NCBI GenBank assembly: GCA_001972305.1
Contig: BDDD01000020.1
Span: 731,013-795,012 of the forward strand
Reading direction: 5' to 3'
Length of the DNA stretch: 64,000 nucleotides
DNA from: Cephalotus follicularis
Lineage: Eukaryota > Streptophyta > Magnoliopsida > Oxalidales > Cephalotaceae
In this document: positions 1 to 62,026 of the stretch, one piece after another
Layout of the letters: each line of letters begins with the position of its first letter
Numbering within the stretch: position 1 is the stretch's first letter
The notes under the pieces: model-generated
Databases searched by the model: none
Told to the model about the DNA's origin: nothing
What the model saw: the letters and a program-made list of their open reading frames with translations, nothing else
Program-made: the position numbers and the translations under genes

Positions 1-658
1 CTTGATTGATGTTTGTATGCTTGATTCACTTGTATTGTTCTTCTTTTTGCACTTCAAATCATTCGTCATTTTATAGCTTAATGCCTCATAGATCCGTTGG
101 GATTAGTTTAGGATTAATTCCTTAATGGAATGTCCACTGAAATCTGTCAGAAAATTGCTGCAGACGATCAAAGCGTCGACTGACCTCTCTAGAGCGTCGA
201 CGGTCATGTGACCGTTGGAACTTCCAAGTTTGAATCATCTGTTTGAAGCGCAGACGTTCCTTTGATTATATCGACCGCCAGGTAAAGCGTCGACCTCCAG
301 CCTTGAGCGTCGTCGCTTAGGTACATTTTAATTGCCAAAAACGCACTGTCCCAGACAGCAGACGCTTTGCACTAAGCGCATGCGTTTTGCGCCTTAAAGC
401 GCAGACGCCTGAATCTTAGCGTCGACGCTTGGAGTGTAATTTCCAATTCTCCAAGTGCTTCATCGGTAGGCGCTTTGTTCTTGTGTCGACCGTCAGTCAA
501 AGCGCAGACGCTTTAATTACAAGCGTCGGCGGTCTGGGCAGTTTCTGCATAATTTCTGCTGATATGATTTAGCTTTTGTCTTTCTTGCACAAAAAGAAAC
601 TTTGTTAAATACAAATATGTTATCATCAAAACATAGGATTGAGACATACATGTCAACA
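1..658 (-). repeat. CoH-family copia LTR, partial, cut by window edge
   Basis: The reverse strand starts at 658 with TGTTGAC and matches, with divergence, the beginning of the LTRs of the gag-only copia at 9369-13824: the same opening about loss of order TGTTGAC, a T-rich stretch, TTTGTGCAAGAAA, then a GTCGAC motif array, then a TATA-like box (TATAAAA on the minus strand at 69-75). The right border is sharp, because plus-strand sequence from 659 continues a GyB-family LTR. The other end lies outside the window, so it cannot be told whether this is a solo LTR or part of a full element, and the target duplication (which would begin CGATT at 659-663) cannot be tested. Confidence 0.7.
172..531. 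repeat. GTCGAC-centred motif array (AGCGTCGACGCT type)
   Basis: About 13 copies of a degenerate AGCGTCGACGCT motif start near 172, 193, 247, 267, 286, 306, 355, 375, 398, 418, 482, 501 and 522. Neighbours are mostly 19-23 bp apart, while the spacers differ from each other. Variants keep one half-site (AGCGCAGACG, AGCGTCGGCG). The copy nearest the TATA-like box at 69-75 lies about 100 bp upstream of it on the minus strand. No function is known to me; it looks like the U3 part of the LTR. Confidence 0.75.
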
Positions 659-715
659 CGATTGAATCAGTTTTTGCATGAAAATGTCAAGTTTCTGCTG
701 TTCTGTCGTCCAGAA

Positions 716-921
716 CAGTCGGCTATTCTTGTGGACAGTTGGCTGGATTGGATGAGTAGTCAACTGCCATATGAAAACAGTCGACTGTCTTGGGTTGTGT
801 AGTCGACTAGATCTATGTGACAGTCGACTGCCTGCAGTCTGTCTTGTGTAGTCAGCTGGCCCTTGTGATTAGTCGACTGCCAAGCTTCCCCAGTCGGCTG
901 GTGCTCTGTAACAGTCAGCTG
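716..921. repeat. CAGTCGACTG array, 10 units, 21-bp period
   Basis: Ten motif copies start at 716, 736, 757, 778, 800, 821, 849, 870, 891 and 912, giving steps of 20, 21, 21, 22, 21, 28, 21, 21 and 21 bp. Exact CAGTCGACTG occurs at 778 and 821; the others have one or two changes, mostly transitions (CAGTCGGCTG, TAGTCAACTG). Spacer sequence is not repeated. The array ends 120 bp upstream of the TATA-like box at 1041. Confidence 0.9.
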
Positions 922-1040
922 TTTTGCTCATAAAAGTGTTGCTTTCAACTGTTTTGATTCGTTTGTTCCTCGAATCAATCCGGGTCTTTTCTAAACACTG
1001 TAATGAGTCTGTTTAATGTCACTAATGTTTCTTTGACCCT

Positions 1041-1047
1041 TATATGA
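1041..1047 (+). promoter_or_regulatory. Putative LTR TATA box
   Basis: TATATGA in the context CCCTTATATGAATG. The same context occurs at the matching place in the two LTRs of GyB (minus strand, near 14144-14149 and 21677-21682), each about 120 bp beyond the motif array. Assignment as a TATA box is by sequence and position only. Confidence 0.4.
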
Positions 1048-1497
1048 ATGGTTTTGGGTGTCTTTTAGATTGTTGTGCCTCAAGGGGAGTTTGATTTAAA
1101 TCATCTATCCGTAAGTGCTTTTGTGAATGCATAAGGTACGGATACTTCGTTCCTTGATACACTCATAAGATTTTATCAAAATAAATCAGTTTTTCTTATT
1201 GCCATGCTTCTTCGTTTATGAACTTGGTAATGTTTTATGGTTTTGACATGTTTCGAAAATGAAGTTGGTTTTTGACATTTATGAATGATTCCGACTTTAT
1301 ACATATGATACGATATGTTATGATCACCTCTTTATAGCGAAGTATAAATGAGTTGATTATTTGACTATGAAATGTATGTTATGATACCGTTGTGAACGAT
1401 TTTCAAATATGTTTTGTGAAAGCATATTTATGTGTTTTTAAATTGATTTTGATAAATCAATGTTTTCGAAATGATTGAATACTGAGTATTGTACCCA

Positions 1498-1517
1498 CCT
1501 ATGGGGCGTACCATAGG
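1498..1517 (+). other. Conserved LTR hairpin CCTATGG/CCATAGG
   Basis: A perfect 7-bp inverted repeat (CCTATGG and CCATAGG) encloses a 6-base loop. It recurs at 4628-4647, 9181-9200 (one mismatch) and 21177-21196 in GyB-family LTRs. In the GyC LTR at 24931-24948 both arms change together to CCTATGA and TCATAGG, so pairing is kept. It is probably an RNA structure in the LTR leader or transcribed region; the role is unknown. Confidence 0.6.
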
Positions 1518-3833: not shown

Positions 3834-6538
3834 TGTAACACCCCCGAGATGTGGGAGCCCTTACAGGTCATAATACATAAACTTAACATAACATAACATA
3901 ATAAAAAGGCTCGGATTTATTAAAAACGTGATGGTCTAAAACATAACTTATAACATACTGAAACTAAACAAGGTCTGGAAACTTATTCAAAACCAAAAGT
4001 TATAAACTGAAACTAACATATTGTTCATAAAAATAGGCCATACTACGACCATATGATAGCATAAACACAGTGGAATCAACTCCTAGATGATCCTCGACAT
4101 AAGAGAGTCACTCTCATCACACATTGCCCCGTTGCTCCTGATAACCTGCCATATGGAAACAAAAATGCGGCTGAGCAAACCTCAGTACGAATATAGAATG
4201 TAAAACAAGTAAACGACATTTTGAAGCAATAAGAATTCAAAAGTACTTCAAATCAAAAATCTCCAGCAATAAATAGTTTAAACTTTCTTTGTAAATGCCC
4301 ACGGAAAAACATATAAACCTATTTCATTGCTTTGAAAGCACAAAACATACCTTTCCAAAACATAGGTTCCATAACTGAGCATCATAACATATCACATATC
4401 AGAAACACGTATAGCAAGGGATTAGCGACATCCACATTGCCAATAGAATTGAAGTGTACGATACTACACAAATAATTCCCATATCATAACATATCACATA
4501 ACACATAACTAGAATCGATCCATACGCCTCTATCACAAATCCTATCCAATGATGTCACAGAGAGACGCCGTAAACTAATCACACCGTTACAGAAAGTGTC
4601 ATGTCCCCGTGCCAGACCTACGACATGCCTATGGTACGCCCCATAGGTGGGTACAAAAAGCTCAGTACTTCACCATTTCAAAACATTGATTTTATCATAA
4701 TCGATTAAAACACATGAGAAACGGTTTTCTAGAACATATTCATAAATCGTTATAAAACGATATAAACACTTGATTTCATAAACGGAGAATCAACTCATTT
4801 AATTTCCTAATAAAGAGGTGATTTCATAACACATCGTAAACATAGCAAAGTTGAATTTTTAAAGTCAGAAATATTTAACTCATAAAATATCAAGTGACTT
4901 TATCTTTAAAATCCAAAACATAACAGAGTCATAAACCGGAAGGGATATGTTCATAAAACTGGATTTAGTTCGAATAAATTAGATGTCCAAGAAGAGAATT
5001 ATCCGTACCTTATGCGATTACCGAATTAACTTACGAATAACTGATAATTCTAATAGCCCCACGTAGCACAATAATCTATACAATATAACAATATTCATGT
5101 AAGGGTCTAAAAATCATTTTAGGCATATATCATAATCATAAAGATGTTTAAAACAAAACCGGGCCAAATGGAAGAACAAACGGATAAGAGAATATGAAAA
5201 CAGAAATTTACAGGACAATCCAACCGACTGATATAAGACTCCAGTCGACTGTCCAAAGGGTGGCAGTCGACTATGCACCAGGCCCAGCCGAATACACAAC
5301 TAGAACAGAAGGCAGTCGACTGTGACAGGGGTCCATTCGGCTGCACAACACAAAACAGTCGACTATATTCATAAGACAGCCGACTACACAAGCTAAACAG
5401 TCAACTGGTCATAAAGACAGCCGACTATTCTGAGTGACAGAACAACAAAGTATGACGGTTTTGTGCAATCTAGCTACTAAACCTCGGATTTCTCAACTCT
5501 AGAAGACTACCAAAACTTAAAATGGCACTGTATGGCATTTAAAACGATAACATAACACTGAATTCAGCTAAGATATGTTGACAGTGATTAATTTAAGGTG
5601 AGAGATGAACTTAAACCATGCATACCTCTTCCTAATAAATTTTCTGTCATGTCATATCTTAAAACCAGATTACATAATACATATGAGGTGTCTAAAGGCT
5701 TACTAACATACTCAGAACAATTGATAGAACATAAGGAAGGCAGAAACCAAAATGAATTCATATCTAGCACCATATGTATGCAAAACGAATTCATGATAAA
5801 ACTAACAACATAACCATCACAGCAAGGCAACAAACTGACCTACAATGGCGTCACAAACTGTAGGATAACACAGGATTTTTAAAGCTCAACCACGGCTGTT
5901 GACAGAAATGAAAGGGGAGAAAACATATAGCTCAAGGATTTGACAAAGCCGTACATATACAAATAAAACACTTTCTAAATTGAACCTTGAAGAGACAAAC
6001 CTGACTTTGGTGACCCGATTACACAGAAAGCACACTGAATTTCCACTTTCAGGTTCGGTACAACCAACGAAAGAGAATGGCAGAATATATATTGGTATTA
6101 GCCAACTTAAATTGGAAGAAGAAGCAATTTAGGCAAGATAAGAATTAAGGAAACCAAAATCTGATTTGATAAGGAAGAGAGGAAGATTTTTAGGAGTTAG
6201 AATTGGAAGGAGGGAGAGATACGGGGAAGAGAGAGAGATAGGGGAGGGAGTTACGGGAAAGGAGAGTTTGAGAGGGAGAGGGAAAAGAAATAATAAGGGA
6301 AAAAAATAATAATAATAATAAAAGATTTTCTTTTAAAAGGGTTTTAAAACCTTAATTAATTAAATAAATATGTAAATATATAATAACCTATATTTTACCA
6401 AAATACAAACGCATATTACATATTCAAAATTAGGGCTAGTATTCAGCCCAAAACATAAACCCAACATAAAGTAGACCAACCACTTATCGAAACAGATAAA
6501 AGCCTGCAAGTATATGTACGGACAAACATGGTATTACA
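3834..6538 (-). repeat. GyB-family solo LTR
   Basis: This 2705-bp block begins TGTAACACCC and ends GGTATTACA, the same termini as the LTRs of GyB at 8371-15601 and 20385-23127, and lies in minus orientation. Flanks are CGGAC (3829-3833) and AGGAC (6539-6543), a 5-bp target duplication with one change. Removing the LTR and one flank restores a continuous GyA pol order. There is no internal domain, so it is a solo LTR, probably left by LTR-LTR recombination. It has the CTGAG-GTTTG-CTCAG block (4171-4185), the hairpin (4628-4647) and the motif array. The TATA-like box seen in sister copies is changed here (CATGTAAG near 5097-5104). Confidence 0.9.
5221..5427. repeat. CAGTCGACTG array, 10 units, 21-bp period
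   Basis: Copies start at 5221, 5242, 5264, 5285, 5313, 5334, 5356, 5377, 5398 and 5418, with steps 21, 22, 21, 28, 21, 22, 21, 21 and 20. This is the reverse-orientation counterpart of the array at 716-921, with the single 28-bp step at the same place. Exact CAGTCGACTG occurs at 5242 and 5313. Confidence 0.9.
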
Positions 6539-9483: not shown

Positions 9484-9745
9484 AGCGCCGACGGTCCCAA
9501 TCAAAACGTCAGTGATTTATGCCAAAAAGTCGACGCCCAAGAAGGTTGTATCTGCCGTTAAAACCAGTGGAGTAAAAAATCAGTTGAAGCACTCAAAGCG
9601 GCGACGCTTAGGATTAAAGCGTCAGCGCTTTATGGCGAAGAGTCGACTCCCAGTTTAAAGCGCCAACGTCAAAACGAGAAAATTCAAATTTAACTCCTAA
9701 CGGTAACCTAAGCGCCGACGCTTTAGGCAATACCGTCAACGCTTT
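9484..9745. repeat. GTCGAC-centred motif array in CoH 5' LTR
   Basis: Six-base cores related to GTCGAC start at 9487, 9508, 9529, 9554, 9600, 9621, 9642, 9662, 9714 and 9735. Seven of the nine steps are 20, 21 or 25 bp, with five exactly 21; the long gaps are 46 and 52 bp. Most flanks extend to AGC...GCT. The same array is present in the 3' LTR (12900-13158). Confidence 0.85.
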
Positions 9746-9861
9746 GGACGGCTGATACAATATCAGAACTTGTTGTAAAGAGCCAACTTTGTAACAACAA
9801 TTTCCAAGACTTCTCCAACGACTCTATTTCTTCATCAACGGCTAGAAACTAAATGAAGCAA

Positions 9862-12785: not shown

Positions 12786-13824
12786 TGTTGACTTTTAGTC
12801 TCAATCATAAGTTTTAATGATTACAAATTTGCATTTAACTTTGCTGCTTTCTGTGAAGAAAAGAAATAAACAAAATTAAGGAGTACAGAAATAGAGCAAA
12901 GCACCGACGGTCCCAATCAAAGCGTCAGTGCTTTATGCCAAAAAGTCGACGCCCAAGAAGGTTGTATCTGCCGTTAAAACCAGTGGAGTAAAAAATCAGT
13001 TGAAACACTCAAAGCGACAACGCTTAGGATTAAAGCGTCAGCGCTTTATGGCGAAGAGTCGACTCCCAGTTTAAAGTGTCAGCGTCAAAACGAGAAAATT
13101 CAAATTTAACTCTTAACGGTAACCTAAGCGTCGACGCTTTAGGCAATACCGTCGACGCTTTGGACGGCTGATACAATATCAGAACTTGTTTTAATGAGCC
13201 AACTTTGTAACAACAATTTCCAAGACTTCTCCAACGGCTCTATTTCTTCACCAACGGCTAGAAACTAAATGAAGCTATATATAGAGGTCAAGAAACAAGA
13301 TTTAAATGACTTGGAACAACTTTTGATCATCCGATCACAAAAGCTCATCTTGCACATCTACAAACTAGAGAAAGAAATCAAGCTAGAGTTTTACACTTTC
13401 ATATCCAAAGCTTGTAACTAAGCCACAACTTTCACATCCAACCTTCAAGAGGTTATTTGTAAACACTATCCAATTATTTTTATCATCCATTGTAAAAGAG
13501 GGGAGTGGACCCTTGTAAGGTGTTTGATTGATTTGCACCCGGAACCCAAAATCAAGTGTAAGGTGGTTTACTTTGATTTGCACCCGTAAGTCGAAAATCA
13601 AAGGTTGCTAGTGGATTATAGTGGAAACTCAAGGGGTTCTTGAGAAAGTGGACGTAGGCACGGATTTTGCTGAACCACTATAAATTGTTTGCACAATCTC
13701 TATCCCTTATCTCTTTACTTACAATTGCATTATTTGTTCTTGTGTGGATTGTTTAGTTTCATAATTTAATTTGTTATTTCCGCAAACAAATTTAGTTATT
13801 AAAGGTTGCCATACATTCCCATCA
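12786..13824 (+). repeat. CoH 3' LTR
   Basis: It matches the 5' LTR over its full length with scattered substitutions, many of them C/T or G/A within the motif array (for example GCGCCGACGG versus GCACCGACGG). TATA box at 13276-13284. It ends CCCATCA at 13824, followed by the target duplication CACAA. Confidence 0.95.
12900..13158. repeat. GTCGAC-centred motif array in CoH 3' LTR
   Basis: The same order and spacing as in the 5' LTR (9484-9745), offset by 3416-3417 bases. Substitutions change single motif copies but the spacing is kept. The array ends about 120 bp before the TATA box at 13276. Confidence 0.85.
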
Positions 13825-14266: not shown

Positions 14267-14473
14267 CAGCCTACTGTAGCAAGACTCCAATCGACTGTTG
14301 GAAGCTTGGCAGTCGACAACCCAACATGGCCAGCCAACTACCTAAACAAAATTGCTGCCAATCGACTGGGACAGGGGTCCAGTCGACTGTGCAAGGCATA
14401 GCAGACGACTGATCATACGGACAGCCGACTACTCAATGTATAACAGCCGACTGTCCAGGAGAACAGACGACTG
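14267..14473. repeat. CAGTCGACTG array in GyB 3' LTR
   Basis: Ten copies start at 14267, 14288, 14310, 14331, 14359, 14380, 14402, 14422, 14444 and 14464 (steps 21, 22, 21, 28, 21, 22, 20, 22, 20). Only 14380 is exact CAGTCGACTG; variants include CAATCGACTG, CAGACGACTG and CAGCCGACTG. Confidence 0.9.
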
Positions 14474-20384: not shown

Positions 20385-23127
20385 TGTAACACCCCTGAAC
20401 GATGGGAGCCCTTACATGTCATAAAAGACAACTTAACAAAACACAACAAAAATTAAAATTAAAATTTATTAAAAATGTGATGGTTTGAAACATAAACTGA
20501 TAGCATATCTGAAACTAAACATAGTCTGAAAGTTTAAACATAAACCAAGTGTCATAATTCGAAACCATCATATTGTTCATAAACGGGTTCTAACCAGACC
20601 ATAAGACAATAGAAACATACTAGGATCAATTGCTCAGATGATCCTCAAACCTAAGGGACACACCTCTCATCACACATTGCCCCGATGCTCCCGATAACCT
20701 GCCCCATGAAAAAAAAACACGGCTGAGCAAACCTCAGTACAGATATAGAATTTAAAAATAGTAAATGATACTTTAAAAGCAATAATATTTCAAAAGTTAC
20801 TTTAAAACATAAATCTTAAGCAATAATCAGTTTAAACATTCCTTATAATTTGCCTCAGCATTTTTGTATAAACCAAATCCATAACTTTTATAACATAATC
20901 AAACCTTTCAAAACATAAGATCCATACTGAGAATCATAACATATCACATATACGAACAAGGGATTCGCGACGTCCACATGCCAAATAGAAATGAAGTGCA
21001 CGACACTACACAATAAATTCTCATATCATATCATATAGCTAGGATCGATCCACACTCCTCTATCATAAATAACGAATCCATAATCCTCCACATAGGATAT
21101 CATAATATAGGGAGACGTCGTAGAGTAATCACACTGCTACGGAAGTGTCATGTCCCAGTGCCAGGCCTACGAGATGCCTATGGTACGCCCCATAGGTGGG
21201 TAGAAATAAACGTAGTACTTTGCCATTTTGTAAACATTGGTTTTACCAAAATCAATTTAAAACACGTATAGAAGTGGTTTTCCAAAACATATCCATAAGT
21301 CGCTATCAAACGATATAATTTCACATACTTTCATAATTGCAAATCAACTCATTTATTTTCACAATAAAAGAGACGATTTGCATAACATTTCATAAACATA
21401 TCATAGCAGAATTTATAAAGTCGGAAATATTTATCTCATAAAATTTCAAAGTGATTTATTTCCAAAACATATCAAAATCAAAAATATAACAGAGTTCGAG
21501 TATCTGCATATTAATCATAAATATGAAACTGGATTATTTCAATCAAAATCAGATTAAGATAGCCGAAGAACGATAGAATCCGTACCTTATGCAATCACAG
21601 AATAACTTACGAATTGACTGATAATTTCTAACTACCCCTCATAGCACAAAAAAATCTAAAAGATACAAAATCATTCATATAAGGGTCTGAAAATCATTGT
21701 GGGCATAAATCAAAATTATAACGGTGTTTAGAACCAACCCTGATTAATCAGAAGAGCAATCTGACAAAGAAATTTGAAAACATAAATTTTATAGACTCAC
21801 CAGCTGACTGTAGCAGGTCTCAAGTCTACTGTTCGAAGCTTGGTAGTCGACTACCCAACATGGCTAGTCGGCTACCTAAACAAAACTGTAGCCAGTCGAT
21901 TTGGACAGGGGTCCCGTCGACTGTGCAAGGCATAGCAGTTGACTGATCATACAGACAGCCGACTACTCAACGTATAACAACCGACTGACCAGGAGAATAG
22001 TCGACTATTCTGGGCGACAGAACAGGAAAAATCTAACAATCCTATGGAATATTCTGTCAAAAACCTGGATATCATAATTCCAGAGGACCATAACCATTTA
22101 CATAAGACATTATATGGTATTAAAACAGTAAACAAACACAGAATTGTAGGGGAGTATGTAGACAGTGATTATACTTTAAAGTGAGAAGGAGTGACTCATA
22201 ATCCACTACATACATGTATAATCTCATTTACCATCAAAATACCACTATCAGTTATCAAAACTAGATTATAACTTATACAGGTGCCTAAAGACTGATTAAC
22301 AAATTCTGAAACCATGACAGAGCATAATGTGGATGGGATCAAGACCAATACTCTAACAGCCTAAATAATCAGAGGATCGGATTGACATTAAAACTAAAAC
22401 AAACTACTAAGCCATAACCACAGAGGAGACAAACCTGAAGGAAGCCAAAGCAATTGAAGAGACACCAAAAAAATCAGGCGGTATACAACGGCTATTCAAC
22501 ATGAAACAAAAGAAAAGAGAAGCATATGGATTCAAGGACTACCATTGTTATGCATATCAAAGCAACATAAACCCAACTATGGAGAACAAACTTGATTTGT
22601 GGAGACGACACTACAAGAAAACACCAAAATTTTCCCATCTTGCAAGTTAGGCTATGACAAGGCAAAAGACAAGGGAATGGTAGAAAACAATGGGCAATGG
22701 CATACTTAAACGGAAAAAAGAGACCAATTCAGCGGGGATAAGGAAAAGAGGAGAAGAATTAGGAGAATTTGAGGGAAAAAGAAGAAAATCAGGTGAGGGG
22801 GTTAAGAGAGGGAGAGATTTACGGGAGAGATAGAGATAGGAGTGAGAGATTTTGGTGAGGGATAGGAGAGAGAGAGAGAGAAGGAAAGAATTTAATTTGA
22901 AATAAAATATTTGATTTTTTTGAATAAATAATTAAAAATTGATTTGTAAATAAATTAATTGAAATAAACATAAACGTTACCAATACACATACACATACTA
23001 ACATACCCAAAAGTCAAGGCTGGTTTCGGTCAGCCCAAAACATATTGACCATAATAAAGTAGACATGCTACAAAACACACAGATTTAGAAGCTCGAAAAT
23101 ATGCACACAGACAAGCAGGGTATTACA
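20385..23127 (-). repeat. GyB 5' LTR
   Basis: 2743 bp, TGTAACACCC at 20385 and GGTATTACA ending at 23127. It has the CTGAG-GTTTG-CTCAG block at 20723-20737, the hairpin at 21177-21196 and the motif array at 21801-22007. A GA-rich run (22797-22890) lies near its 5' end on the minus strand. It shows the uninterrupted site into which CoH inserted in the other LTR. Confidence 0.95.
21801..22007. repeat. CAGTCGACTG array in GyB 5' LTR
   Basis: Copies start at 21801, 21822, 21844, 21865, 21893, 21914, 21936, 21956, 21978 and 21998. The steps (21, 22, 21, 28, 21, 22, 20, 22, 20) are identical to those of the 3' LTR array although many motif bases have changed in one LTR or the other. Confidence 0.9.
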
Positions 23128-25765: not shown

Positions 25766-25770
25766 GATAG

Positions 25771-29353: not shown

Positions 29354-29498
29354 AGCGTCGACGCTTTAGCCTAAAGCGTCGATGCCTTATTGTTGTAAGC
29401 GGTTGACACGTAGCGGCATGCGTTGACGGTTAAGCATATTGCTTTAGCCGTTGACGCCTAGCGCAAAGCATTGACACTTATACGTTAAGCGTCGACGC
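29354..29498. repeat. GTCGAC-centred motif array in GyI
   Basis: Copies of AGCGTCGACGCT or its variants start at 29354, 29375, 29398, 29419, 29447, 29467 and 29488: steps 21, 23, 21, 28, 20 and 21. The 28-bp step recalls the gypsy CAGTCGACTG arrays although the motif flanks are of the copia type. Exact AGCGTCGACGCTT occurs at 29354 and 29488. Confidence 0.85.
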
Positions 29499-33756: not shown

Positions 33757-35787
33757 TGTTAGATATAGTGACCCGAGAAGCCATTAGATGGGTTGTCATA
33801 TTATATCTTATCCTATATGAAACAATCTTATTCCTTGTATATATGATGTGTGCTAATTTGTTATGGCAATATCGCTTGTGTTTTATAACTTAATTGAAGT
33901 AGTTTCTTATTTACATTCTTACACTTGTGATGCCCTTACATAAGGTTGGATGCCTAGCATGGAGGCTGTGAGATAGGTTACCTTATTCCTTATTTCAAAT
34001 TAGTTCCAAGTCATAGGTTCACTTTGTTGGCAATACTGAATCGGATAGACTTGCGCGTATGTTGCCTGCTCAAGGAATTGGAGGATGGACTCTCTCACAA
34101 CCATCTGTGTTGGTCACTAGGGCACATATGGGGTGCACGCTGGGAGCGTGTACACTGAACAGTACCCGCATAGGAGACACTGTTTGGATAGTCGCTATTC
34201 TCGTGTCAGTAGTGACTCCTAGTTGTTGCAGTTGTGTATAAGTGATGATCACTTAGCGAGTTCTCAAACTCGTCTGATCCTTAGACCTGAGCGACTGCTA
34301 TATATTGTATGGAGATGGTTATGCTTTGATCTCCACCTTACCCAGTCCTTCAGCAGGGCTATCAATCGGGTGGCCTTTGGCTATGATCGAATCTATACGA
34401 ATATAAGTGAGCGCAAAATATGGGATTGTCAAACCTGAGCGAAGGTCATTGGCTCTATTATGATCTTATTATACTTTGGATCTATGAAATCCTTGGCCAA
34501 GGTTGATGTAGACTAGAAATTAGATTTTTGGAGAGTTTGCCAACGGTCCTAGTAATGATCAAATATTTTAGCCATTGAGGTATTATCTAGGGTTGACACA
34601 TATCCTTACCCTAGACCTCAATCCGGGCCAAGCATGACAAGGGATTATAGTACACGTGAACTGGCGACTTAGAAAATCTAGGGTTAATGAGGTGTGTGAT
34701 AGATTATGGGAAAATTAATTAGATTAATTTTTCCGTCTGAATAATATTAGATATTATTTGGAGAGCATTTCAATTGATCTAGGATCATTTAGAATGGCTA
34801 AACCGAACCCTAGGGGTATTTCGGTCATTTATGAACACCTCCGATTTTAACCAAGATTTTATAGAGTCCCTGCCCGATAATGATTAATACATAAATATGG
34901 TGGACATATTAAGCCTTTGTGAAAATTTATCAAATCAAATATCTGTTAGGTGGATCTTGCATTTTGTGGAAACACATTGACTTGATCTTACTTAATCAAT
35001 ATTAGAAGGGATAAAATGAGTTAGACTCATTTAAGAGTTATACTCTATTTTCCCAACCAGCCTGTCTAAGCATCGACGTCTTTTAGGAAAGCGTCGACAC
35101 TTAACACATGAAATGTAGAGTGTTATTACATATAAGTGTCGACGCATATTGGAAGGCGTCGACGCTTAGTGCGTGACTTGGGTTCCCTGGGTGGACAAAA
35201 ATCATGCACACGTTTTCTCTCTCTCACTACCTCCCACTACCGATGGTTTACTCCCTTCTCTGCATGATGGGGGACATGATTAGATCATGGTTCCATGATT
35301 CCTAAAGGATAGGAACATGATCAAGAAGTGGAGGTGAGGTTGAGCTTTAGAAGAAGAGAGAAATGGGGTTGGTATAAGGAATTCAAGGGAGAGCATTTTC
35401 TTAAAGGCTTCCATTGGGAAAAATAGGAAGGGGATTCTCTGGTTCTCTTGGCAATCCTTTTGTGATTATACACCAAGCATTGTAGCTTATCTAGGGTGGA
35501 TTGACATTGACAACCTTTGTCAACACCATTGCACCCTTTGTGAGTTTTATGAAGAAGAGAGAGTGAAGAACACAGGCTGGTTTTACTGTGTTCTGGCTGG
35601 TCGGGAGTAGTTTCTGAACCAGGGATCTTGGAGTACAATCGAAGAGGAGCCTTCGTAAGTTTGATGCGGCAAAGACGAAGTAGCCTTCACCCATTGGTAT
35701 ATCCCTTTGCCTCCTTCGTTTTGCTTTGCTTGTATGTCACCATTGATTGCAATGGTGACATCTTTTTCAATTAAGTTTTGATGTGGC
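33757..35787 (+). repeat. CoD 5' LTR, truncated at its 3' end
   Basis: It starts TGTTAGATATAGTGACCC and follows the 3' LTR (39958-42186) up to GATGTGGC at 35780-35787; the last about 155 bp are missing. It also lacks 46 bp of the GTCGAC motif region present in the 3' LTR (see 41270-41412). A 15-bp palindrome AAGTGATGATCACTT at 34240-34254 is followed by the hairpin GAGTT-CTCA-AACTC at 34258-34271. Confidence 0.9.
35068..35170. repeat. GTCGAC-type motifs in CoD 5' LTR
   Basis: Motifs near 35070 (GCATCGACGT), 35091 (GCGTCGACAC), 35136 (GTGTCGACGC) and 35156 (GCGTCGACGC): steps 21, 45 and 20 bp. One pair present in the 3' LTR is absent. Confidence 0.75.
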
Positions 35788-39962: not shown

Positions 39963-42186
39963 GATATAGTGACCGAACAAGCCATTACATGGGTTGTCAT
40001 ATTATATCTTATCCTGTATGAAACAATCTTATTCCTTGTATATATGATGTGTGCTAATTTGCTATGGCAATATCGCTTGTGTTTTATCACTTAATTGAAG
40101 TAGTTTATTATTTACATGCTTACACTTGTGATGCCCTGACATAAGGTTAGATGCCTAGCATGGAGGCTGTGAGATAGGTTACCTTATTCCTTATATCAAA
40201 ATAGTTCCAAGTCATAGGTTCACTTTGTGGGCAATAGTGAACTGGATAGACTTGCGCGTATGTTGCTTGCTCATTGAATTGGAGGATGGATTCTCTCACT
40301 ACCATATGTGTTGGACACTAGGGCAAATACGGGATGCACGCTGGGAGCCAGTACACTGAACAGGACCCGCATAGGAGACACTGTTTGGATAGTCACTATT
40401 CTCGTGTCAGTAGGGACTCCTACTTGTTGCAGTTGTGTATAAGTGATGATCACTTAGTGAGTTCTCAAACTCGTGTGATCCTTAGACCTGAGCGACTGCT
40501 TTATATTGTTAGGAGACGATTATGCTTGGATCTCCGCCTTACGCAGTCCTTAAGCTGGGCTGGCAATTGGGTGGCCTTTGGGTATGATCGAATCTATACG
40601 AATATAAGTGAGTGCGTAGTATGGGATTGTCACATCTGAGCGAAGGTGATCGGCTCTATTATGATCTTATTATACTTTGGATTTATGAAATCCTTGGCCA
40701 ACGTTGAGGTAGACTGGAAATTAGATTTTCGGAGAGTTTGCCAAAGGTCCTAGTAATGATAAGATATTTTATCCATTGAGGTATTATCTAGGGTTGACAC
40801 ACATCCTTACCCTAGACCTCAATCGGGGCCAAGCATGACAAGGGATTATAGTACACGTAAACCGATGACTTAGAAAATCTAGGGTTAATGAGGTGTGTGA
40901 TAGATTATGGGAAAATTAATTAGATTAATTTTTCAATCTGAATAATATTAGATATTATTTGGAGAGCATTTAAATTGACCTAGGTTCATTTAGAATGGCA
41001 AAACCGAACCCTAGGGGTATTTCGGTCATTTATGAACACCTCCGATTTTAACCAAGATTTTATAGGGTCCCTGCCCGCTAATAATTAGTACATAAATATG
41101 TTTGACATATTAAGCCCTGGTGAAAATTTATAAAATCAAATATCGGTTAGGTGGATCTTGCATTTTGTGGAAACACATTTACTTGATCTTACGTAATCAA
41201 TATTAGAAGGGATAAAATGAGTTAGACTCATTTAAGAGTTAGACTCTATTTACCTAACCAGCCTGTCTAAGCGTCGACGCCTTTTAGGAAAGCGTCGATG
41301 CATAACATTAGACAATGCGTCGACACCTTCTAGGAAAGCGTCGACACTTAACACTTGAAATGTAGAGTGTTATTACATATAAGCGTCGACGCTTATTGGA
41401 AGGCGTCGACGCTTAGTGCACGACGTGGGTTCCCTGGGTGGACAAAAATCATGCACACATTTTCTCTCTCCCAATACCTCCCACTACCGATGCTTTACTC
41501 CCTTCTCTACATGATGGGGGACATGATTAGATCATGGCTCCATGATTCCTAAAATATAGGAACATGATCAAGAAGTGGACGTGAGGTTGAGCTATAGAAG
41601 AAGAGAGAAATGGGGCTGGTATAAGGCATTCAAGGGAGAGAATTTCCTTAAAGGCTTCTATTGGGAAAAATAGGAAGGGGATTCTCTAGTTCTCCTTGCA
41701 TTCCTTCTGTGATTATACACCAAGCATTGTAGCTTATCTAGGATGGATTGACATTGACAACCTTTGTCAACACCAATGCACCCATTGTGAGTTTTGTGAA
41801 GAAGAGAGAATGAAGAACACAGGCTGGTTTTACTGTGTTCTTGCTGGTCGGGAGCAGTTGCTGAACCAGGGATCTTGGAGTACAATGGAGGAGGAGTCTT
41901 CGCAAGCTTGAAGCGACAAATACGAAGGAGCCTTCACCCATTGGTATATCCGTTTGCCTCCTTTTTTTTGCTTTGCTTGTATGTCACCATTGATTGCAAT
42001 GGCGACATCTTTTTCAATTAAGTTTTGATGTGGCGATCCATGTGGCCTATGGTCAAGCCATAATGGACTGTTTTTTCCTTTGTTGGGTGTTCTTCCGCTG
42101 CTATTTTATGCTCTAAATGTTTTATTCTACACCCTATATGCCCAAGTCCGTTTTTGGCTCCGGATTCGGTTTATCCTATTCCATCA
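39958..42186 (+). repeat. CoD 3' LTR
   Basis: 2229 bp from TGTTAGATATAGTGACC to TATTCCATCA, followed by the duplication CCTAA. The polypurine tract GGTCAAGTGGGAGAT precedes it. The palindrome AAGTGATGATCACTT is at 40441-40455. It has three pairs of GTCGAC-type motifs (41270-41412). Confidence 0.9.
41270..41412. repeat. GTCGAC-type motif pairs in CoD 3' LTR
   Basis: Motifs start at 41270/41291, 41316/41337 and 41382/41402: three pairs with internal spacing 21, 21 and 20 bp. The middle portion, 46 bp (one inner plus one outer step), is what the 5' LTR lacks. Confidence 0.8.
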
Positions 42187-45350: not shown

Positions 45351-47129
45351 TGCATATTATAAAGCCATACTAGTGACCTAGAAAAGGAAATATAAACATG
45401 AGTTAGCATTTATTCCAATTTTAATATATGACAATCATAACACTTGGTCTTTAGTGCTTATGGTTCCTCCCACTATTCTAATCGTATCCCATACCCCCAT
45501 ATGGAATTCGAGAAGTCTAACTTCCTTGTGGGGATTGGAATCCATTGCAATCATATTATAGTCTCAGCTAGGGCATGACAAAAATATAATATATCCAATG
45601 GGTAGGCTTTCTTGCAAATTTGTGTCGAATACAAGATTTAGTCATAGTATTCGGCCTTAGATTCAATATGGCCTCAACTATGGCATGACAAACCATCAAA
45701 ATCTTGATAAGTCAAGTACCCACAATTTTCATTGGAATGCACTAGTTTTAACACCCACACGTAGGCGTGTCCAAGTGCTAAAACATAGCCACCCTTTGCG
45801 GTGCCCAACACCGATGTTGACATAATATTCCCAAGTCCTTAGCCTCAGCTAGGGCATGACAAACCAACAACCTAGGAACACTACTCAACGAAAATTGTGG
45901 AAGGCCACAGGGAACCACTCCATGGGTTCCTATGTTAAGACTTATTATTAAGGTGAGGGAATTTGCAGTCTCAGATTTTAATTACCGAGCCATTAATTAA
46001 TTGATCGGTTGTATTAGCCAATTCCAATTAATTACGGCATAGCATGCAAGACGTGTATCTTATGCACCTTGGACATACTTCTAAAATATGTCAATGGATT
46101 GACAAGGACATTATTAGTAGTGACTTGAGCCCAAAATCACTACTAGGTCTTCCTAGGTGTTAAGATATAAAATTTATCTATTACAAGAAATTACCATGCA
46201 TACATGGCCTTCAAAAATCATGTACTCCATTTCTCCTTTCCTCCATCTCTCCTTGTAAGGTCTTCTTTTACAAAAAGAACTTTACATTTTCGAAAGAAAA
46301 AATACATTTAAAATTACAAGGAAAAATTACAAAAGAAAGGAAAAATAAATGGTGCATGCAGGCACCTTATTACAAACCTTTAAAAATAATAAATAAATAA
46401 CATCCATCCACACATAGAAAACCATAAACTAGCTCAATGTCCTTTTTCAGGCCATCCATTATGCATAAGACTTATATTAAATCCAATATAATAAAACCAC
46501 AAAATAACAAACGCCATAAATAATAACTAATTATAAAATTTAATTTAAGGATTGTTAATAATGGTTAAATTCCCACTAAATCAAGCAATGATTTTTATTT
46601 TCTAAGTGCCACAATGTAGAAAATCCAATTTTATTAAAAACAGATTTTTTTTAAAAAAAACTTTTGCTAAAGCGTCGACGCTTCCCAGAAGGCGTCGACG
46701 CTTACCTCTAAGGCTCAAAAAATAGAGAAATTGAATAAGCGGCGACGCTATGCCAAGGCATCGACGCAGTAACAACCCAGTGGCACAAGCGTCGATGCTT
46801 AAACCACAAACGTCTACGCTTTATCCCACAAGGCAGTTTTTGCAATTCCACAATTGCAGAAAATATAGTTTGAACATTAGGCATACATACATCCAGTCAT
46901 TATCTAACCATATGCAGCCTTAATCTACACTATGTAGGTTTCCAAAACATGTTCAAATTCCATTTTAACATAATCTCCAAGATTAATTAACTATGAAATC
47001 CAATTTCATATAAAAAACATTAAGGCACTTTGAAAATTAGTTTAACCAAAAACAACACATCCTCTGATTAAACCTTAAAAAATTGTACATCATTCATAGC
47101 ACAAAATTCAATCAAGGATGATGTGGGAC
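45351..47129 (-). other. CoE leader, noncoding, with a second motif array
   Basis: About 1.78 kb between the primer-binding site and gag. No open frame of note. Near 45560-45900 three copies of a CAGCTAGGGCATGACAAA-like string (45567, about 45683, 45850) form a loose repeat. GTCGAC-type motifs cluster at 46671-46829. Such a long leader before gag is unusual for a small copia and may carry packaging or regulatory sequence (inference). Confidence 0.7.
46671..46829. repeat. GTCGAC-type motif pairs in CoE leader
   Basis: Motifs start at 46671/46691, 46738/46757 and 46798/46819, again three pairs with 19-21 bp inside each pair. They include exact AGCGTCGACGCTT at 46671. The location is inside the element, downstream of the LTR and primer-binding site, unlike the LTR arrays. 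Confidence 0.8.
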
Positions 47130-47430: not shown

Positions 47431-49042
47431 GCTCAACCTCGGCTGCACTACTTGATCATGTTCCTCCCTCTATGGGATCATGGAACCATGATCTGATAAC
47501 ATGATTTCCATCATGCTAAGTAGGGAGAAAACCACTAGTAGTGGGACGTAGTGGGAGAGAGAAAACATGTGCACAATTTTGTCCACCCAGGAACCCACGT
47601 CGCGCACTAAGCGTCGATGCCTTCCAATAAGTGTCAACGCTTATATGTAATAACACTATACGTTTCACGTGCTAAGTATTGACGCTTTCCTAGAAGGCGT
47701 CAACGCTCTGTCTAATGTTACACATCGACGCTTTCGCAGAAGGTGTCGACGCTTAGACAGGCTAATTAGGTAAATAGAGTCTAACTCTTAAATGAGTCTA
47801 ACTCATTTTATCCCTTCTAATATTTATTAAGTAAGATGAAGTAAATGTGTTTCCACAAAATTCGACATCCACCTAACCGATATTTGATTTTATAAATTTT
47901 CACCAAGACTTAATATGTCCAACATATTTATGTACTAATCATTATCGAGCAGGGACCCTATAAAATCTTGGTTAAAATCGGAGGTGTTCATAAATTACCG
48001 AAATAGTCCCAGACCAAATTAAATGCTGTCGGAATAATATCTAATATGGAAAAATTAATCTAATTAATTTTTCCATAATTTATTACATACCTCTTTAACC
48101 CTTGATTTTCTAAGTCATCGGTTCACGTGTAGTATAATCCTTTGTCATGCTTGGCCCCGTTTGAGGTCTAGGGTAATGATATGTGTCAACCCTAGATAAT
48201 AACTCAATGGCTAAAATATCTGATCATTACTAGGACCTTTGGTAAACTCTCCGGAAATCTAATTTCCAGTCTACCTCAACCTTGGCCAAGGATTTCATAA
48301 GTCCAAAGTATAATTAGATCATAATAGAGCCGATCACCTTCGCTCAAGTGTAACAATCCCATATTGCACACTTACTTATATTCGTATAGATTCGATCATA
48401 CCCAAATACCACCCGATTGCCAGCCCTGCGCAAGGACTGGGTAAGGTGGAGATCAAAGCATAACCGTCTCCATACAATATAGAGAGCAGTCGCTCAGGTC
48501 TAAGGATCAGACGAGTTTGAGAACTCGCTAAGTAATCATCACTTATGCACAACCGCAACAATTAGGAGTCACTACGGACATGAGAATAGCGACTATCCAA
48601 ATAGTGTCTCCTACGTGGGTCCAGTTCAGTGTACATGCTCCCAACGCGCACCCCGTATTTGCCCTAGTGTCCAACACAGATGGTAGTGAGAGAATCCATC
48701 CTCCGATTCCATGAGCAGGCAACATACGCGCAAGTCTATCCAGTTCACTAGTGACCACAAAGTGAACCTATGACTTGTAACTAATTTTACATAAGGAATA
48801 AGGTAACCAATCTCACAGCCTCCATGCTAGGCATCCAACCTTATGTCAGGGCATCACAAGTGTTAGTAGGTAAATAATAAACTACTTCAATTAAGTGATA
48901 AAACACAAGTGATATAGCCATAAAAAATTAGCACGTATCATATATATAAGGAATAAGATTGTTTCATATAAGGAATAAGATTGTTAATAGGTATATAAAA
49001 CGATAGTCCACCCAATGGCTTTTCGGGTCACTACGTCTAACA
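47143..49042 (-). repeat. CoE 5' LTR
   Basis: 1900 bp, matching the 3' LTR (30875-32873) with indels, including a much longer CT microsatellite (47368-47426) and a shorter stretch near 48000-48060. The minus strand begins TGTTAGACGTAGTGACCC at 49042 and ends TTCCACCA. Motif pairs of the GTCGAC type lie at about 47608-47755, several changed by transitions. Confidence 0.9.
47368..47426. repeat. (CT)29 microsatellite
   Basis: An uninterrupted CT/GA dinucleotide run of about 59 bp within the CoE 5' LTR. The same place in the 3' LTR has about six CT units (31452-31464), so the tract grew after insertion. Confidence 0.95.
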
Positions 49043-51581: not shown

Positions 51582-51688
51582 CAGCTGACTGTCACAGGGT
51601 AACAGTCGAATGCCTAGTTTATGGAGGAACAACCGACTGTCACAGGGGAACAGTCGATTGTTTGATGCGAGGAATGGACAGTCAACTG
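51582..51688. repeat. CAGTCGACTG array 1 in GyF 5' LTR (5 units)
   Basis: Copies start at 51582, 51603, 51630, 51651 and 51679 (steps 21, 27, 21, 28). The 3' LTR has a sixth unit one 21-bp step further. Units are changed by transitions: CAGCTGACTG, CAGTCGAATG, CAACCGACTG, CAGTCGATTG, CAGTCAACTG. Confidence 0.85.
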
Positions 51689-52732: not shown

Positions 52733-52824
52733 CAGTCGACTGTTCTTTATGGCAGTCGACTGTTAAGAACAAACAATCGACTACTCAATCAAAACAGCCG
52801 ACTGTTCTTGAGAACAGTCGACTA
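52733..52824. repeat. CAGTCGACTG array 2 in GyF 5' LTR (5 units)
   Basis: Copies start at 52733, 52753, 52774, 52795 and 52815 (steps 20, 21, 21, 20). Two are exact. The array ends about 100 bp upstream of the TATA box at 52925. Confidence 0.9.
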
Positions 52825-52924
52825 TCCTGAGATAAATCTCTGATATAGGTGATGTTTACGCCTTAAATTGAATGTAATTACCTGGGCCTCCATATGGGAT
52901 GATTGTAACAGTGAATCCTAGCCC

Positions 52925-52931
52925 TATATAA
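52925..52931 (+). promoter_or_regulatory. GyF LTR TATA box
   Basis: TATATAA in the context GCCCTATATAATTAC. Good match to a plant TATA box and placed downstream of array 2. Confidence 0.6.
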
Positions 52932-54170: not shown

Positions 54171-54182
54171 TGGTATCAGAGC
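54171..54182 (+). other. GyF primer-binding site (tRNA-iMet)
   Basis: TGGTATCAGAGC four bases after the LTR end; intact. Confidence 0.9.
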
Positions 54183-54270
54183 ATATTCCATATATGCTAG
54201 CTGGGATAAGTTTCTTAGAAATTAAGTGAAGTGTTTCCTAATGATTATGTCATTCCATATAGGAAACCGA

Positions 54271-58849: not shown

Positions 58850-58878
58850 GGGCTAAATTTGAGGACGAATTTTCTATA

Positions 58879-58890
58879 GGGAGGGGGGAA
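58879..58890 (+). other. GyF polypurine tract
   Basis: GGGAGGGGGGAA directly before TGTAATAACC of the 3' LTR. Confidence 0.85.
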
Positions 58891-60036
58891 TGTAATAACC
58901 ACATTTTCAATCCGTATATATTGTACACTTGATGAATAAATTATGCACTTACTTGAATTTTAATGTCCAATTATTATATGAATTGTGGTTGTGGATTTAA
59001 TTGAGGGAATAAACTTGGGCAACCAAAATCAGGCAAAATAGCCGACTGTCACAGGGTAACAGTCGACTGCCTAGTTTATGGAGGAATAGCCGAATATCAC
59101 AGGGGAACAGTCGACTATTTGATGTGACAAATGGACAGTTGACTGCCGAGTAAATACAGTCGACTGGAATGGTACAGAACAGGTGTCAGTGCATGCATGT
59201 GAAAAGAACAGAGGAAGTGCATGATGGACAAGTGTTATGTGAGACAGCAGTTGCCATAACATGCAAGACGAGTGCCTTGCATGTACTCTGCGTACTTGCA
59301 ACCTGTAATCAGAGCAGAAAAGTGAGAAAGAGAATGAAAGAAGAGATGCATGTGAGAGAGAGAAGAGAAGAGAGGGAAGGTTGAGTTAATGGGAACCTAA
59401 CGAATCCTAAGGCTTTAAAACCTTTATAACATCTGTTACATGAGCTGACTGAGTGTTAGAAAACACTGAGGAGAAGAAATCAAAGGAAAGAATGGTTGGA
59501 GCTTGCATGTTGAAGATTTGAGTGTTCAAAGAGACTTGGAAGCTTGATTTTCCTAGCAAGTTCCCAAATCCGAGCTCACTACTGATGTTGAGGTTTGTTG
59601 ATGATGTAACTAGGAGGATGTTAGACATATCTTTTGTTAACATGATTAAGACTAATAATTTCTGGAATTGAAATAGAAATGGTAAATGGTTCAATAAGAG
59701 TTGAAACTTATGAGCTAATGATGAGCTACTCGTTGGATATTAGGTTGTTAGTGGATTAAACGTACTAATGTTAGTAATTTATATCCACTGTTGACATGGG
59801 AATGAATGATTAAACCTGGAAATTAAGATTATATGAGAGGTTGTTTGAAAATGTGGAAGAGAGACTTAATGGAATTGTTGATAAGCTACAGTTGGAGTAG
59901 TAATTTGTAACTGGATAATTAGTTAAACTTGCTGGTTAAATGTTTGAACCTTCGAACATGTAATGGTATAGATTAATTCTTGCTGAGATTGGAAGATTGA
60001 GTTGGTGGAAGGACTTGGACACTAAAGAGAGAAGTT
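58891..60036 (+). repeat. GyF 3' LTR, first 1.15 kb
   Basis: It matches the 5' LTR from TGTAATAACC up to ACACTAAAGAGAGAA (about 60035) and then departs into sequence that belongs with GyG. The exact border could be up to about 60 bp further because both sides share GTTTAAGGT-like bases. Confidence 0.8.
59039..59166. repeat. CAGTCGACTG array 1 in GyF 3' LTR (6 units)
   Basis: Copies start at 59039, 59060, 59087, 59108, 59136 and 59157 (steps 21, 27, 21, 28, 21). The last unit is absent from the 5' LTR, a difference of exactly one 21-bp step. Confidence 0.85.
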
Positions 60037-60330
60037 TATAAATACAGTTTAAGGTCAAGGTAATGCGTATCATGAATGAATGCATGGTGATGTAGTATGA
60101 CATGTAATTTTCTCAAAATCATAGCTCCGTATATACATATAAAAATATATGCATGTTCACTGTACAAGTATAACTCATAAGTTATATCAACACAAGCAAT
60201 AAGTATGTCCCAAAAGGAACCAGACAAACAAGTCGTCATAACCGTCGCCACCTCCTGGCCCCAACGTCATGCACTCTTACCCCATCCCCATTTGCGAACG
60301 GTTTTGGAGCAAGTCCTCCGTATATTGTTT

Positions 60331-60417
60331 AGCGCGGCGGCTAAACCAACAGCAAGTTACTAGCACAGCGGCTGAGTAACCAACAAGTTATTAGCACAGC
60401 GGCTAATAATCAACAAG
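60331..60417. repeat. 31-bp tandem repeat, 2.8 copies
   Basis: Units begin at 60331, 60362 and 60393 with AGCRCRGCGGCT and end CAACAAGTTAYT. They lie inside the GyG LTR. The GCGGCT core is GC-rich in an AT-rich setting. Confidence 0.8.
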
Positions 60418-60828
60418 CACAAGCATTACAAGTCAAACAATAAAATATGATTACTTGATCACATATATTTGTTTAAAATATATTACTCCGTTCACAAGTT
60501 GTGATAAGATATAAAACTTAAAACAATACATTTGGATTGCGTAGTCAATCCTTTAAAACATTTCTCCATCTTTGGGGATACTTCCCCAGCCATTTCGAAA
60601 ATATATAAAATCATATGTTTGACAAATATACATTTTCGTACAATAATGATTTTGATAATCATACAAGCATTTCAAAATGGTTAACACTTTTTAGAAATCA
60701 ACAATAATGCAATTCATAGTACAGTAGCAGTTCAAATGCAGGGCAAACATATGCTCATGATGCACCTAGGGTTATTGGGAATTAACCTAGGCCTATCACA
60801 TTCTCTAAAGGTCCAATTTCTGCAGTAA

Positions 60829-61044
60829 CAGTCGACTGGTTTTTTCATAACAGTCGGCTGGATCCTTGAGTCAGTTGAGTGTGCTTCCTCAACAGTCTAC
60901 TTGTTCATCACGAGCAATCAGCAGTCGGCTGTCTTCCTTCGACAGTCGACTGTTCTGGGAAAAACGCATGCATAATCGACTGTTCTTACATGACAGTCGA
61001 CTGGATCATTGAGTAGTCAACTGTTTTACATAAACAGTCGGCTG
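60829..61044. repeat. CAGTCGACTG array 2 in GyG LTR (10 units)
   Basis: Copies start at 60829, 60851, 60872, 60893, 60922, 60943, 60973, 60994, 61014 and 61035 (steps 22, 21, 21, 29, 21, 30, 21, 20, 21). Exact CAGTCGACTG at 60829, 60943 and 60994; CAGTCGGCTG at 60851, 60922 and 61035. Confidence 0.9.
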
Positions 61045-61873
61045 TCCTGGGCTTGACAGTACCAGTAATCCAATTCTAAATCCATCCAACAAGTCATTGA
61101 AACCATTCCACATGTATTCATATCACAGAATATCATCGGTAGTCATATTATGTTCTAAAACACAACTCAGTTCATGCATTATTCTCCGTTTTCATCATAA
61201 TTCAAATGAAATCAAAATATGGCATTGCATGAAAACCAATCCAATTCTCCATTCAAAATCCAGTAAGCATGCCAGGTTATTCATCAATAAGTAACCATAA
61301 CCTTAACACAGAAATCCATAATCAACCACTACACCATTCATTAATAACATCATCACGCTTTAACTCAAAATGCATACATAAAATTCTCTACCACTACCCC
61401 TACCTTTGATTTCAAGTTGGAAATCGGAAGTCCACCTCTTTGTGTCTTCTTTCCAGTGTCTTTGAGCCTCCCAGTAGCTCCAAGAACAATCCAGTAGCTT
61501 AATCCGAGCTCCAAGGTTAACAATGGGGAATCCTCCAATTCCTCACTATTTCTCACTCAAATTCTCACTGTCTTGGCTCTCAATCTCTTTGGTTCTTTCT
61601 TATCAGATTGTAGGGTGAGAGAGACGATGGCAGGAAGCATTTATGTAGTCTTTTCTCCTTCAACCCCTTCTGCATGGCATAAGAGCCCATTCCTCTCACA
61701 ATGACTTGCAAGCTCACACACTTGTCATTCTTCCTCTTTCTCTCTGTTCTTGCAGGACCTGGCGTGGTGGTGCATGCACGACACGTCTTGTTTATCATCA
61801 TATGGTGTCTGCAAGTTGTCTTATCAATGGCTGCATGTGATCTCATCACATGCAGATAAAACAGGGCACGATC

Positions 61874-62026
61874 CAGTCGGCTGCCTTTCCCTGGCAGTCG
61901 GTTGCTTCGCCTGGCAGTCTGTTGCCAAGTGTCACGACAGTTGGCCAGTCGGCTGGTTCCTCACACCAGTCGACTGCCTCCCCCTTTAGTCCAACAGTCG
62001 GCTGGTATATCACACCAGTCGGCTGT
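61874..62026. repeat. CAGTCGACTG array 1 in GyG LTR (7 units)
   Basis: Copies start at 61874, 61895, 61915, 61946, 61967, 61995 and 62017 (steps 21, 20, 31, 21, 28, 22). The prevailing form is CAGTCGGCTG. Confidence 0.85.

Follow-up and report, generated by a model that had tools for sequence, protein, structure and literature searches.

What protein, if any, reads the arrays of short GTCGAC-centered palindromes that recur at a step of about 21 bp in transposable elements of Cephalotus follicularis, a carnivorous pitcher plant placed in the order Oxalidales? The question is raised by a stretch of 64,000 nucleotides (C20:731013-795012, contig BDDD01000020.1, of a 1.58-Gb assembly in 9,746 contigs), hereafter called the window, in which a first-pass annotation had described such arrays in unrelated long terminal repeat (LTR) retrotransposons of the gypsy and copia types. 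The window was compared with 20 fixed-position 10-kb stretches (positions 300001-310000 of C1 to C19 and of C21; 200 kb, about 3% N). About 275 kb beyond the window were read as sequence (L-numbers denote stretches of other contigs), and genome-wide pair numbers are given as counted by the search tool. From the sequence evidence we favor, tentatively and with somewhat less than even confidence, the reading that the arrays are binding platforms read by proteins of the Transposase_32 family (PF20167; hereafter T32), acting in cis and in trans.

The hexamer GTCGAC occurs 53 times in the window, compared with a mean of 4.56 in 100 dinucleotide shuffles (largest shuffle, 10), and 94 times in the comparison sample. 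A scan of 5- and 6-mers for an excess of pairs 20 to 22 bp apart was topped by pieces and decayed forms of two motifs, which define two classes: class 1, CAGTCGACTG, and class 2, (A)AGCGTCGACGCT(T), of the GCGTCGACGC type. Exact copies of CAGTCGACTG and AGCGTCGACGCT number 13 and 6 in the window. With degenerate patterns, the window and the 200-kb sample together hold 81 class 1 and 91 class 2 sites, against 11.6 and 11.7 in 10 shuffles. Chains of at least three copies (no more than two mismatches to the motif, links of at most 52 bp) number 17 in the window and 20 in 12 of the 20 comparison stretches. Among site pairs within 100 bp in the same sequences, 137 were class 1, 72 were class 2 and just 2 were mixed, with none in shuffles, indicating that there are two classes and that they seldom meet within one array. 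Under the looser two-mismatch rule, 4 of the 20 chains of the sampled stretches hold one site scoring closer to the other class. A rare closeness of the classes was seen in L015, where 131 bp separate a class 1 array (5672-5756) from the class 2 array that comes after it (5887-5959).

A GTCGAC core and a step close to 21 bp common to unrelated elements, as the first-pass annotation had proposed, were borne out across the genome and extend to a hAT DNA transposon beyond its list. Of 218,544 genomic GTCGAC pairs lying 7 to 36 bp apart, 166,339 are at 20 to 22 bp (76% in 3 of 30 offsets), so that the peak reaches far beyond the copies first described. The reversed-letters control, CAGCTG, gave 3,890 pairs and is likewise peaked (1,742 at 20 to 22 bp); CAGCTG is also the CpG-decay product of CAGCCGACTG, which probably contaminates this control and causes its excess. 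For CAGTCGACTG, 37,144 of 48,687 pairs 10 to 40 bp apart are at 20 to 22 bp (controls, 166 and 132), and GCGTCGACGC gave 4,236 pairs against 7 in its control.

Steps of class 1 are mostly 19 to 22 and 27 to 28 bp, with 29 to 30 bp in the GyG block of the window. In the window and the comparison sample, 38 class 1 pairs within 40 bp are at 20 to 22 bp, 4 at 27 to 28 bp and 1 at 40 bp; the 69 plus-strand CAGTCGACTG places listed, all from C1 and hence not a random sample, gave 57 steps of 19 to 22 bp, 12 of 27 to 28 bp and none elsewhere. The 49-bp step of the GyB arrays conceals a decayed copy (at 21869) that splits it into 21 + 28 bp, and the 48-bp step of the GyF 3' LTR appears as 27 + 21 bp in the GyF 5' LTR. 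Class 2 is looser, with steps of 19 to 22, 25, 28, 31, 41 to 47 and 66 bp in the window clusters; among 50 plus-strand GCGTCGACGC places listed, 41 steps were 19 to 22 bp and the rest 23, 25, 29, 31, 32, 33 and 40 bp. The dominance of 20- to 22-bp steps claimed earlier therefore stands, but the longer steps are a recurrent component of class 1, and class 2 keeps the rule less closely. The suggestion that every copy could be met on the same helix face is weakened, since a 28-bp step corresponds to 2.67 turns and is a regular part of class 1 arrays; with 27- to 28-bp steps recurring, we rejected the same-face arrangement as a sufficient account. A step near 21 might instead point to action at the RNA or small-RNA level, through a 21-nucleotide small interfering RNA register or RNA hairpins. 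This we consider very unlikely, because the steps vary (19 to 22 and 28) and leave no fixed 21-nucleotide register, and because some sites precede TATA-like words and T32 genes.

Constraint on the arrays was evaluated in the GyB family, whose LTRs gave an alignment of 35 rows (the query and 34 further sequences, among them L025, which is the query copy itself and was retained alongside it). The motif mask held 10 copies, including the decayed one at 21869, which was recognized by eye and added by hand. In columns with an A or T majority, identity was 0.945 in the motif, 0.821 in the spacers and 0.837 outside the array; purine/pyrimidine identity was 0.962, 0.900 and 0.915, respectively. Neither motif value was reached by any of 865 circular shifts of the mask. 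Columns with a C or G majority were less conserved (0.798, 0.763 and 0.762) and show C-to-T and G-to-A decay in the motif, which may be read as methylation of silent copies; over all columns, the values were 0.854, 0.792 and 0.812. Indel events numbered 20 per 6,979 aligned bases in the array and 196 per 20,095 outside it. Overall, the identity of the A/T columns and the scarcity of indels indicate that motif and steps were kept during the evolution of the family, in agreement with the earlier remark that GyB arrays retain their steps while motif bases mutate. The fourth motif position is T or C about equally (CAGYCGACTR), and the palindrome is thus not strict.

The spacers had been described as unrelated to each other, which holds in that they mostly differ, but not entirely. 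Thirteen class 1 arrays, some belonging to one element, supplied 58 spacers, whose similarity within arrays was 0.446 compared with 0.329 after column-preserving shuffling, and there was a slight excess between arrays as well (0.415 and 0.391), neither value being reached in 500 shuffles. Bases flanking the motif are also biased, the first spacer base being A in 1 of 58. This likeness suggests that arrays grew partly via local duplication and that pieces may have moved between families. Could the arrays then be by-products of local duplication, without any binding protein, the step being a relic of a 21-bp tandem unit? Within-array spacers are indeed alike beyond chance, and some arrays contain longer duplicated blocks. 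Nevertheless, the motif was kept while the spacers diverged, the array indel rate is low and the same step recurs in unrelated elements, so that this explanation has very little to recommend it. On descent of all arrays from a single tandem repeat, a possibility raised in the first-pass annotation, the spacers give a partial answer: they mostly differ, but the weak words they have in common would allow for array pieces having been exchanged.

Arrays were found in gypsy elements, in copia elements (labels backed by Pfam matches for part of these elements) and in a hAT DNA transposon, where they are oriented GTCAACG arrays. L012, one of the 20 fixed-position stretches, has class 2-like sites around a hAT gene (Dimer_Tnp_hAT, 5.9e-24). 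The element, joined from L012 and L057, has terminal inverted repeats TAGGGTTCAAGTGG / CCACTTGCAACCCTA and an 8-bp target duplication (flanks GGCTTGAC and GACTTGAC, 7 of 8 positions equal). In this single copy, from which the hAT arrays were read, 15 GTCAACG-type sites (loose pattern; steps 19 to 24, 29 and 40 to 41 bp) occupy 6525-6866 on the left side, upstream of the transposase gene; 14 CGTTGAC-type sites lie at 9625-10015, where the 3' ends of the element's two convergent genes face each other; and the sites upstream of the second gene, which encodes a Transposase_32 protein (98.6 bits), are looser and mixed. The piece at L012:9339-9504 matches the end of the T32 gene in inverted orientation (77%). 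Genome-wide, direct GTCAACG pairs (6,577 + 6,669 = 13,246) exceed head-to-head pairs (2,174) by about 6:1, where random CpG decay of palindromes would give 2:1 (tail-to-tail pairs being outside the count). Oriented arrays are therefore real and not merely CpG-decayed palindromes.

The hAT family yielded 2,419 first-look candidates, of which 150 were scored. The 134 T32 matches listed are the best-scoring of 14,326 first-look candidates. For 46 of them, one of these 150 hAT matches, likewise the best few of a large family, is found no more than 7 kb away; all 46 pairs are convergent (tail to tail), with starts 2.1 to 2.5 kb apart in 36. Cephalotus contains an abundant convergent two-gene hAT family (transposase plus Transposase_32). 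As hAT elements carry dense subterminal transposase sites, the arrays could also be hAT subterminal repeats read by the transposase of a hAT or by a host protein that descends from one, the same sites having been adopted by LTR elements. The left-hand sites with their LTR-like steps, the excess of direct pairs and the size of the family would fit. However, one of the hAT arrays is internal, the hAT motif is oriented where the LTR motif is near-palindromic, and no hAT element with class 1 arrays was found among the stretches read, which makes this explanation improbable in our view.

T32 is encoded by three array-bearing elements outside the window: the hAT element, a full copia element and a gag-only copia element. 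The three proteins are 24 to 30% identical, and Transposase_32 is the sole Pfam family matched by all 29 aligned members; the hAT copy and P0001 (76.3 bits) pass its cut-off of 45 bits. The full copia has a 408-codon stop-to-stop T32 frame ahead of its 3' LTR, with class 2 GTCGACGC sites as a loose cluster in both LTRs and one such site 13 bp before the frame. In the gag-only copia, no pol frame was found, and T32 follows gag; both LTRs hold class 1 arrays, and another (7490-7674) lies shortly before the T32 gene, which one stop splits into pieces scoring 27.9 and 39.4, each below the cut-off. A copia-type element with class 1 arrays contradicts the earlier division of the motifs into a gypsy form (CAG) and a copia form (AGCG). 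In all three elements, the class found upstream of T32 is that of the element itself. Genome searches with the three T32 types gave 134, 150 and 101 scored matches, the best-scoring of larger families, and by hand count no stop is listed in 109 of the 150 and 44 of the 101. Coiled-coil-looking frames without a firm Pfam match were also seen at L006:7505-8170 and L017:2678-3223, maybe in other LTR elements; these are perhaps extra open reading frames (ORFs) like those with Transposase_28.

Eight further T32 genes were inspected upstream, four of the gag-only type (300 bp at 401 to 700 bp before the matched part) and four of the P0078 type (300 bp directly before the match). A class 1 array was present in three of the former (steps 19, 21 and 91 to 93 bp; none in L060) and a class 2 site at no more than one mismatch in three of the latter (none in L064), with a second site 42 bp on in L066. 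Sites were thus found in 6 of 8 stretches at either stringency, compared with 5.7% of 3,898 random stretches at one mismatch and 14% of 3,885 at two.

A TATA-like word follows the array, in element orientation, in 9 of 15 stretches, the first one 13 to 135 bp on (13 bp in GyB, 54 bp in the gag-only copia LTR and 18 to 22 bp in three T32 upstream stretches; for L063, L065 and L066, the ends of the arrays were placed manually, relying in part on decayed sites). The other six lack such a word, among them the LTRs of GyF and CoD and all three of the class 1 stretches scanned upstream of T32, so that a promoter location is plausible for only some of the arrays. These observations bear on a different kind of reader, a host transcription factor or two paralogues, one for each class. 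In that case, LTR elements, hAT and T32 promoters would have gained the sites convergently and by exchange of array pieces. A host factor is a known kind of thing, ONSEN having acquired heat-shock elements; the TATA-like words agree with it, as does the failure to find T32, or a Pfam match in ten unassigned frames, within the window. Conversely, the six stretches without a TATA-like word do not speak for a promoter factor, and the dense hAT array between the 3' ends of two genes is an unexpected place for one. Moreover, the literature search named no plant factor with this motif, and we know of none; GTCGAC in two papers checked came from SalI cloning primers only. A host factor is the main rival of T32 and only somewhat less probable. 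Half-site likenesses to RWP-RK/NLP, DREB and WRKY were set aside, as the literature search gave nothing firm.

Returning to T32, we propose that the arrays serve transposable elements as putative binding platforms within their control regions; each palindrome would be bound by a two-fold symmetric protein (a dimer) and the copies, held at set steps (about 21 bp; in class 1 also 28 bp), would let neighboring dimers cooperate. The constraint on motif and step, the near-palindromy and the position in LTRs, in a leader and upstream of genes point to such a bound dimer with neighbor contacts. Because elements without a recognized spare gene carry arrays, the reader should act in trans. T32, putatively a family of sequence-specific proteins, fits this role because array-bearing elements from two superfamilies encode it, its genes have array sites upstream and the class agrees in the three elements read, and the array between the hAT gene 3' ends and the element-specific motif versions favor an element protein. 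We infer that T32 would keep or switch on transcription, by anti-silencing, activation or both, wherever an element carries an array of the matching class, the T32 gene itself being among the targets. The T32-encoding hAT, full copia and gag-only copia elements would be the source, and elements without T32, such as GyB, GyF and CoD of the window, would be users in trans. Of the three possibilities originally offered, a host factor, exchange of LTR modules and an element-encoded regulator, we favor the last, with exchange contributing. In its widest form, the proposal would make T32 proteins transposon-encoded DNA-binding regulators and GTCGAC arrays a shared address code, made by hAT and copia and read in trans on gypsy and copia. 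Unrelated transposons would then be joined in a common network for anti-silencing or activation that runs in two or more parallel channels (class 1 and class 2); we judge this widest form unlikely on balance.

Several points weigh against T32 as the reader. A host factor driving all these promoters predicts most of the observations too, including arrays upstream of T32, and the class match would be partly automatic if an element tunes all its promoters to one factor. No T32 match was found in the window by tblastn, and many array elements are thus without T32. T32 and arrays are both very common in the genome, the T32 cases are few (three elements), and the C1 locus (C1:3166-11327) was picked for having arrays. 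The eight upstream stretches represent two families and not independent cases, and two of them have no site. No solved-structure relative of T32 was found by sequence. Finally, the all-column identity of the GyB motif is unexceptional, 43 of 865 shifts reaching the motif value, because C and G columns decay.

As seen in Table 1, many arrays lie in LTRs, as the first-pass annotation had it, but one array of GyF is in the internal leader and not in an LTR. GyF (51434-60032), whose two LTRs and leader each hold an array, is an element in which a reader could act at two points. CoH (9369-13823) sits in the GyB 3' LTR and has LTRs 96% identical; only a gag frame was recognized in it (10848-11951, Retrotran_gag_2), with no pol recognized and no T32 found, and it seems to be a gag-only copia element. 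The 3' LTR array of CoD (33757-42033) is two copies longer than the 5' array, a whole-step change within one element. In GyX (25198-29290), 568-bp direct repeats, 92% identical, flank a short protease/reverse transcriptase (PR/RT) stretch, and the first repeat stops ahead of a primer-like site, TGGTATCAAAGC. A reader encoded within the window itself was considered and rejected, as there is no T32 match and ten unassigned frames of 121 to 169 codons gave no Pfam match, which by itself does not exclude coding.

Table 1. Arrays of the window and array-bearing elements encoding T32 outside it
Feature	Location	Strand	Details
Class 1 array (CAGTCGACTG type), GyB-family LTR piece	716..921	-	9 copies, steps 20-22 and 49
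Class 1 array, GyB-family LTR piece	5221..5427	+	9 copies
Class 1 array, GyB 3' LTR (8371-15601, split by copia CoH)	14267..14473	-	9 copies; LTR pairing
Class 1 array, GyB 5' LTR (20385-23127)	21801..22007	-	10 copies including decayed copy 21869
Class 1 array, GyF 5' LTR (~51434-52555)	51582..51688	+	Steps 21, 27, 21, 28; LTR pair; Pfam gypsy domains
Class 1 array, GyF internal leader, ~180 bp past 5' LTR	52733..52824	+	Steps 20, 21, 21, 20; outside LTR repeat
Class 1 array, GyF 3' LTR (~58891-60032)	59039..59166	+	Motif scan
Class 1 array, GyG block	60829..61044		10 copies, steps 22, 21, 21, 29, 21, 30, 21, 20, 21
Class 1 array, GyG block	61874..62025		6 copies found, steps 21, 51, 21, 28, 21
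Class 2 sites (GCGTCGACGC type), loose cluster	173..532		Below chain-of-3 rule
Class 2 array, copia CoH 5' LTR (~9369-10407)	9485..9742	+	LTR pair; motif scan
Class 2 array, copia CoH 3' LTR (~12786-13823)	12943..13158	+	LTR pair; motif scan
Class 2 array, directly after GyX 3' repeat	29355..29498		Chain rule
Class 2 array, copia LTR piece	31646..31787		Repeat pairing, motif scan
Class 2 array, copia CoD 5' LTR (~33757-35786)	35070..35165	+	LTR pair; motif scan
Class 2 array, copia CoD 3' LTR (~39958-42033)	41271..41412	+	Steps 21, 25, 21, 45, 20
Class 2 array, copia block	46672..46819		Chain rule
Class 2 array, copia LTR piece	47611..47752		Motif scan
hAT element	6361-12350 of joined L012 + L057 (L012:6361 to L057:2451)		Terminal inverted repeats, target duplication
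Full copia	L005+L058		LTR pieces 99.5% identical over 770 bp; gag 597, pol 809 codons, stop to stop
Gag-only copia	C1:4376-10195		LTR pieces 96.2% identical over 709 bp; copia gag

In one genome, three superfamilies and more than 160,000 site pairs share a single motif code with a set step, and this code adjoins an abundant family of plant proteins without a known function. If T32 does read the code, PF20167 would gain a function and could serve as a tool with which silent chromatin is addressed; if a host factor reads it, this would be a large case of transposon convergence on one factor. No report of these arrays or of T32 function was found in the literature searched, which covered few subscription papers. 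To our knowledge, sequence-specific anti-silencing by transposons is well known from one plant system only, that of VANC.

Ac-type hAT subterminal repeats resemble the present arrays in having many short sites near the hAT ends, mostly in opposite orientation on the two sides; here, in contrast, the sites occur also in LTR retrotransposons, where they are near-palindromic, and one hAT array is internal. The heat-shock elements of ONSEN, the BII boxes of Tnt1 and the repeats of Tto1 are likewise repeated factor sites in U3, with few copies in one family each, whereas in Cephalotus one step rule extends across superfamilies and tens of thousands of copies. Plant LTR elements can also carry additional ORFs without a known function, as described for Retand, with an antisense ORF carrying Transposase_28, a TRP28 protein predicted to bind DNA and tandem repeats in about half of the elements studied (PMC11963269), and for Athila, with an ORF carrying Transposase_32 (PMC11728184); the portions of these two papers available to us describe no motif array tied to the protein. 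The closest parallel is VANC of the Arabidopsis VANDAL transposons, an analogy that turned out nearer than the first-pass annotation supposed, since some array elements encode the extra protein Transposase_32 and have array sites upstream of its gene. VANC proteins target motif arrays in noncoding regions (PMC5735166), and the VANC21 motif YAGTATTAY is enriched in one VANDAL family, rare in other elements and present in one orientation (Hosaka 2017, PMC5735166; PMC10398659). Dense short-motif arrays in noncoding parts, array change by duplication, an extra element-encoded gene and motif versions that differ between groups are common to both systems (PMC5735166, PMC10398659). In the hAT, full copia and gag-only copia elements, T32 is likewise a protein outside gag-pol or transposase, and dense noncoding arrays are present in the same element, the sites being looser in the full copia. 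Unlike the VANC21 motif, the Cephalotus motif is near-palindromic, is held at set steps and is common to gypsy, copia and hAT elements.

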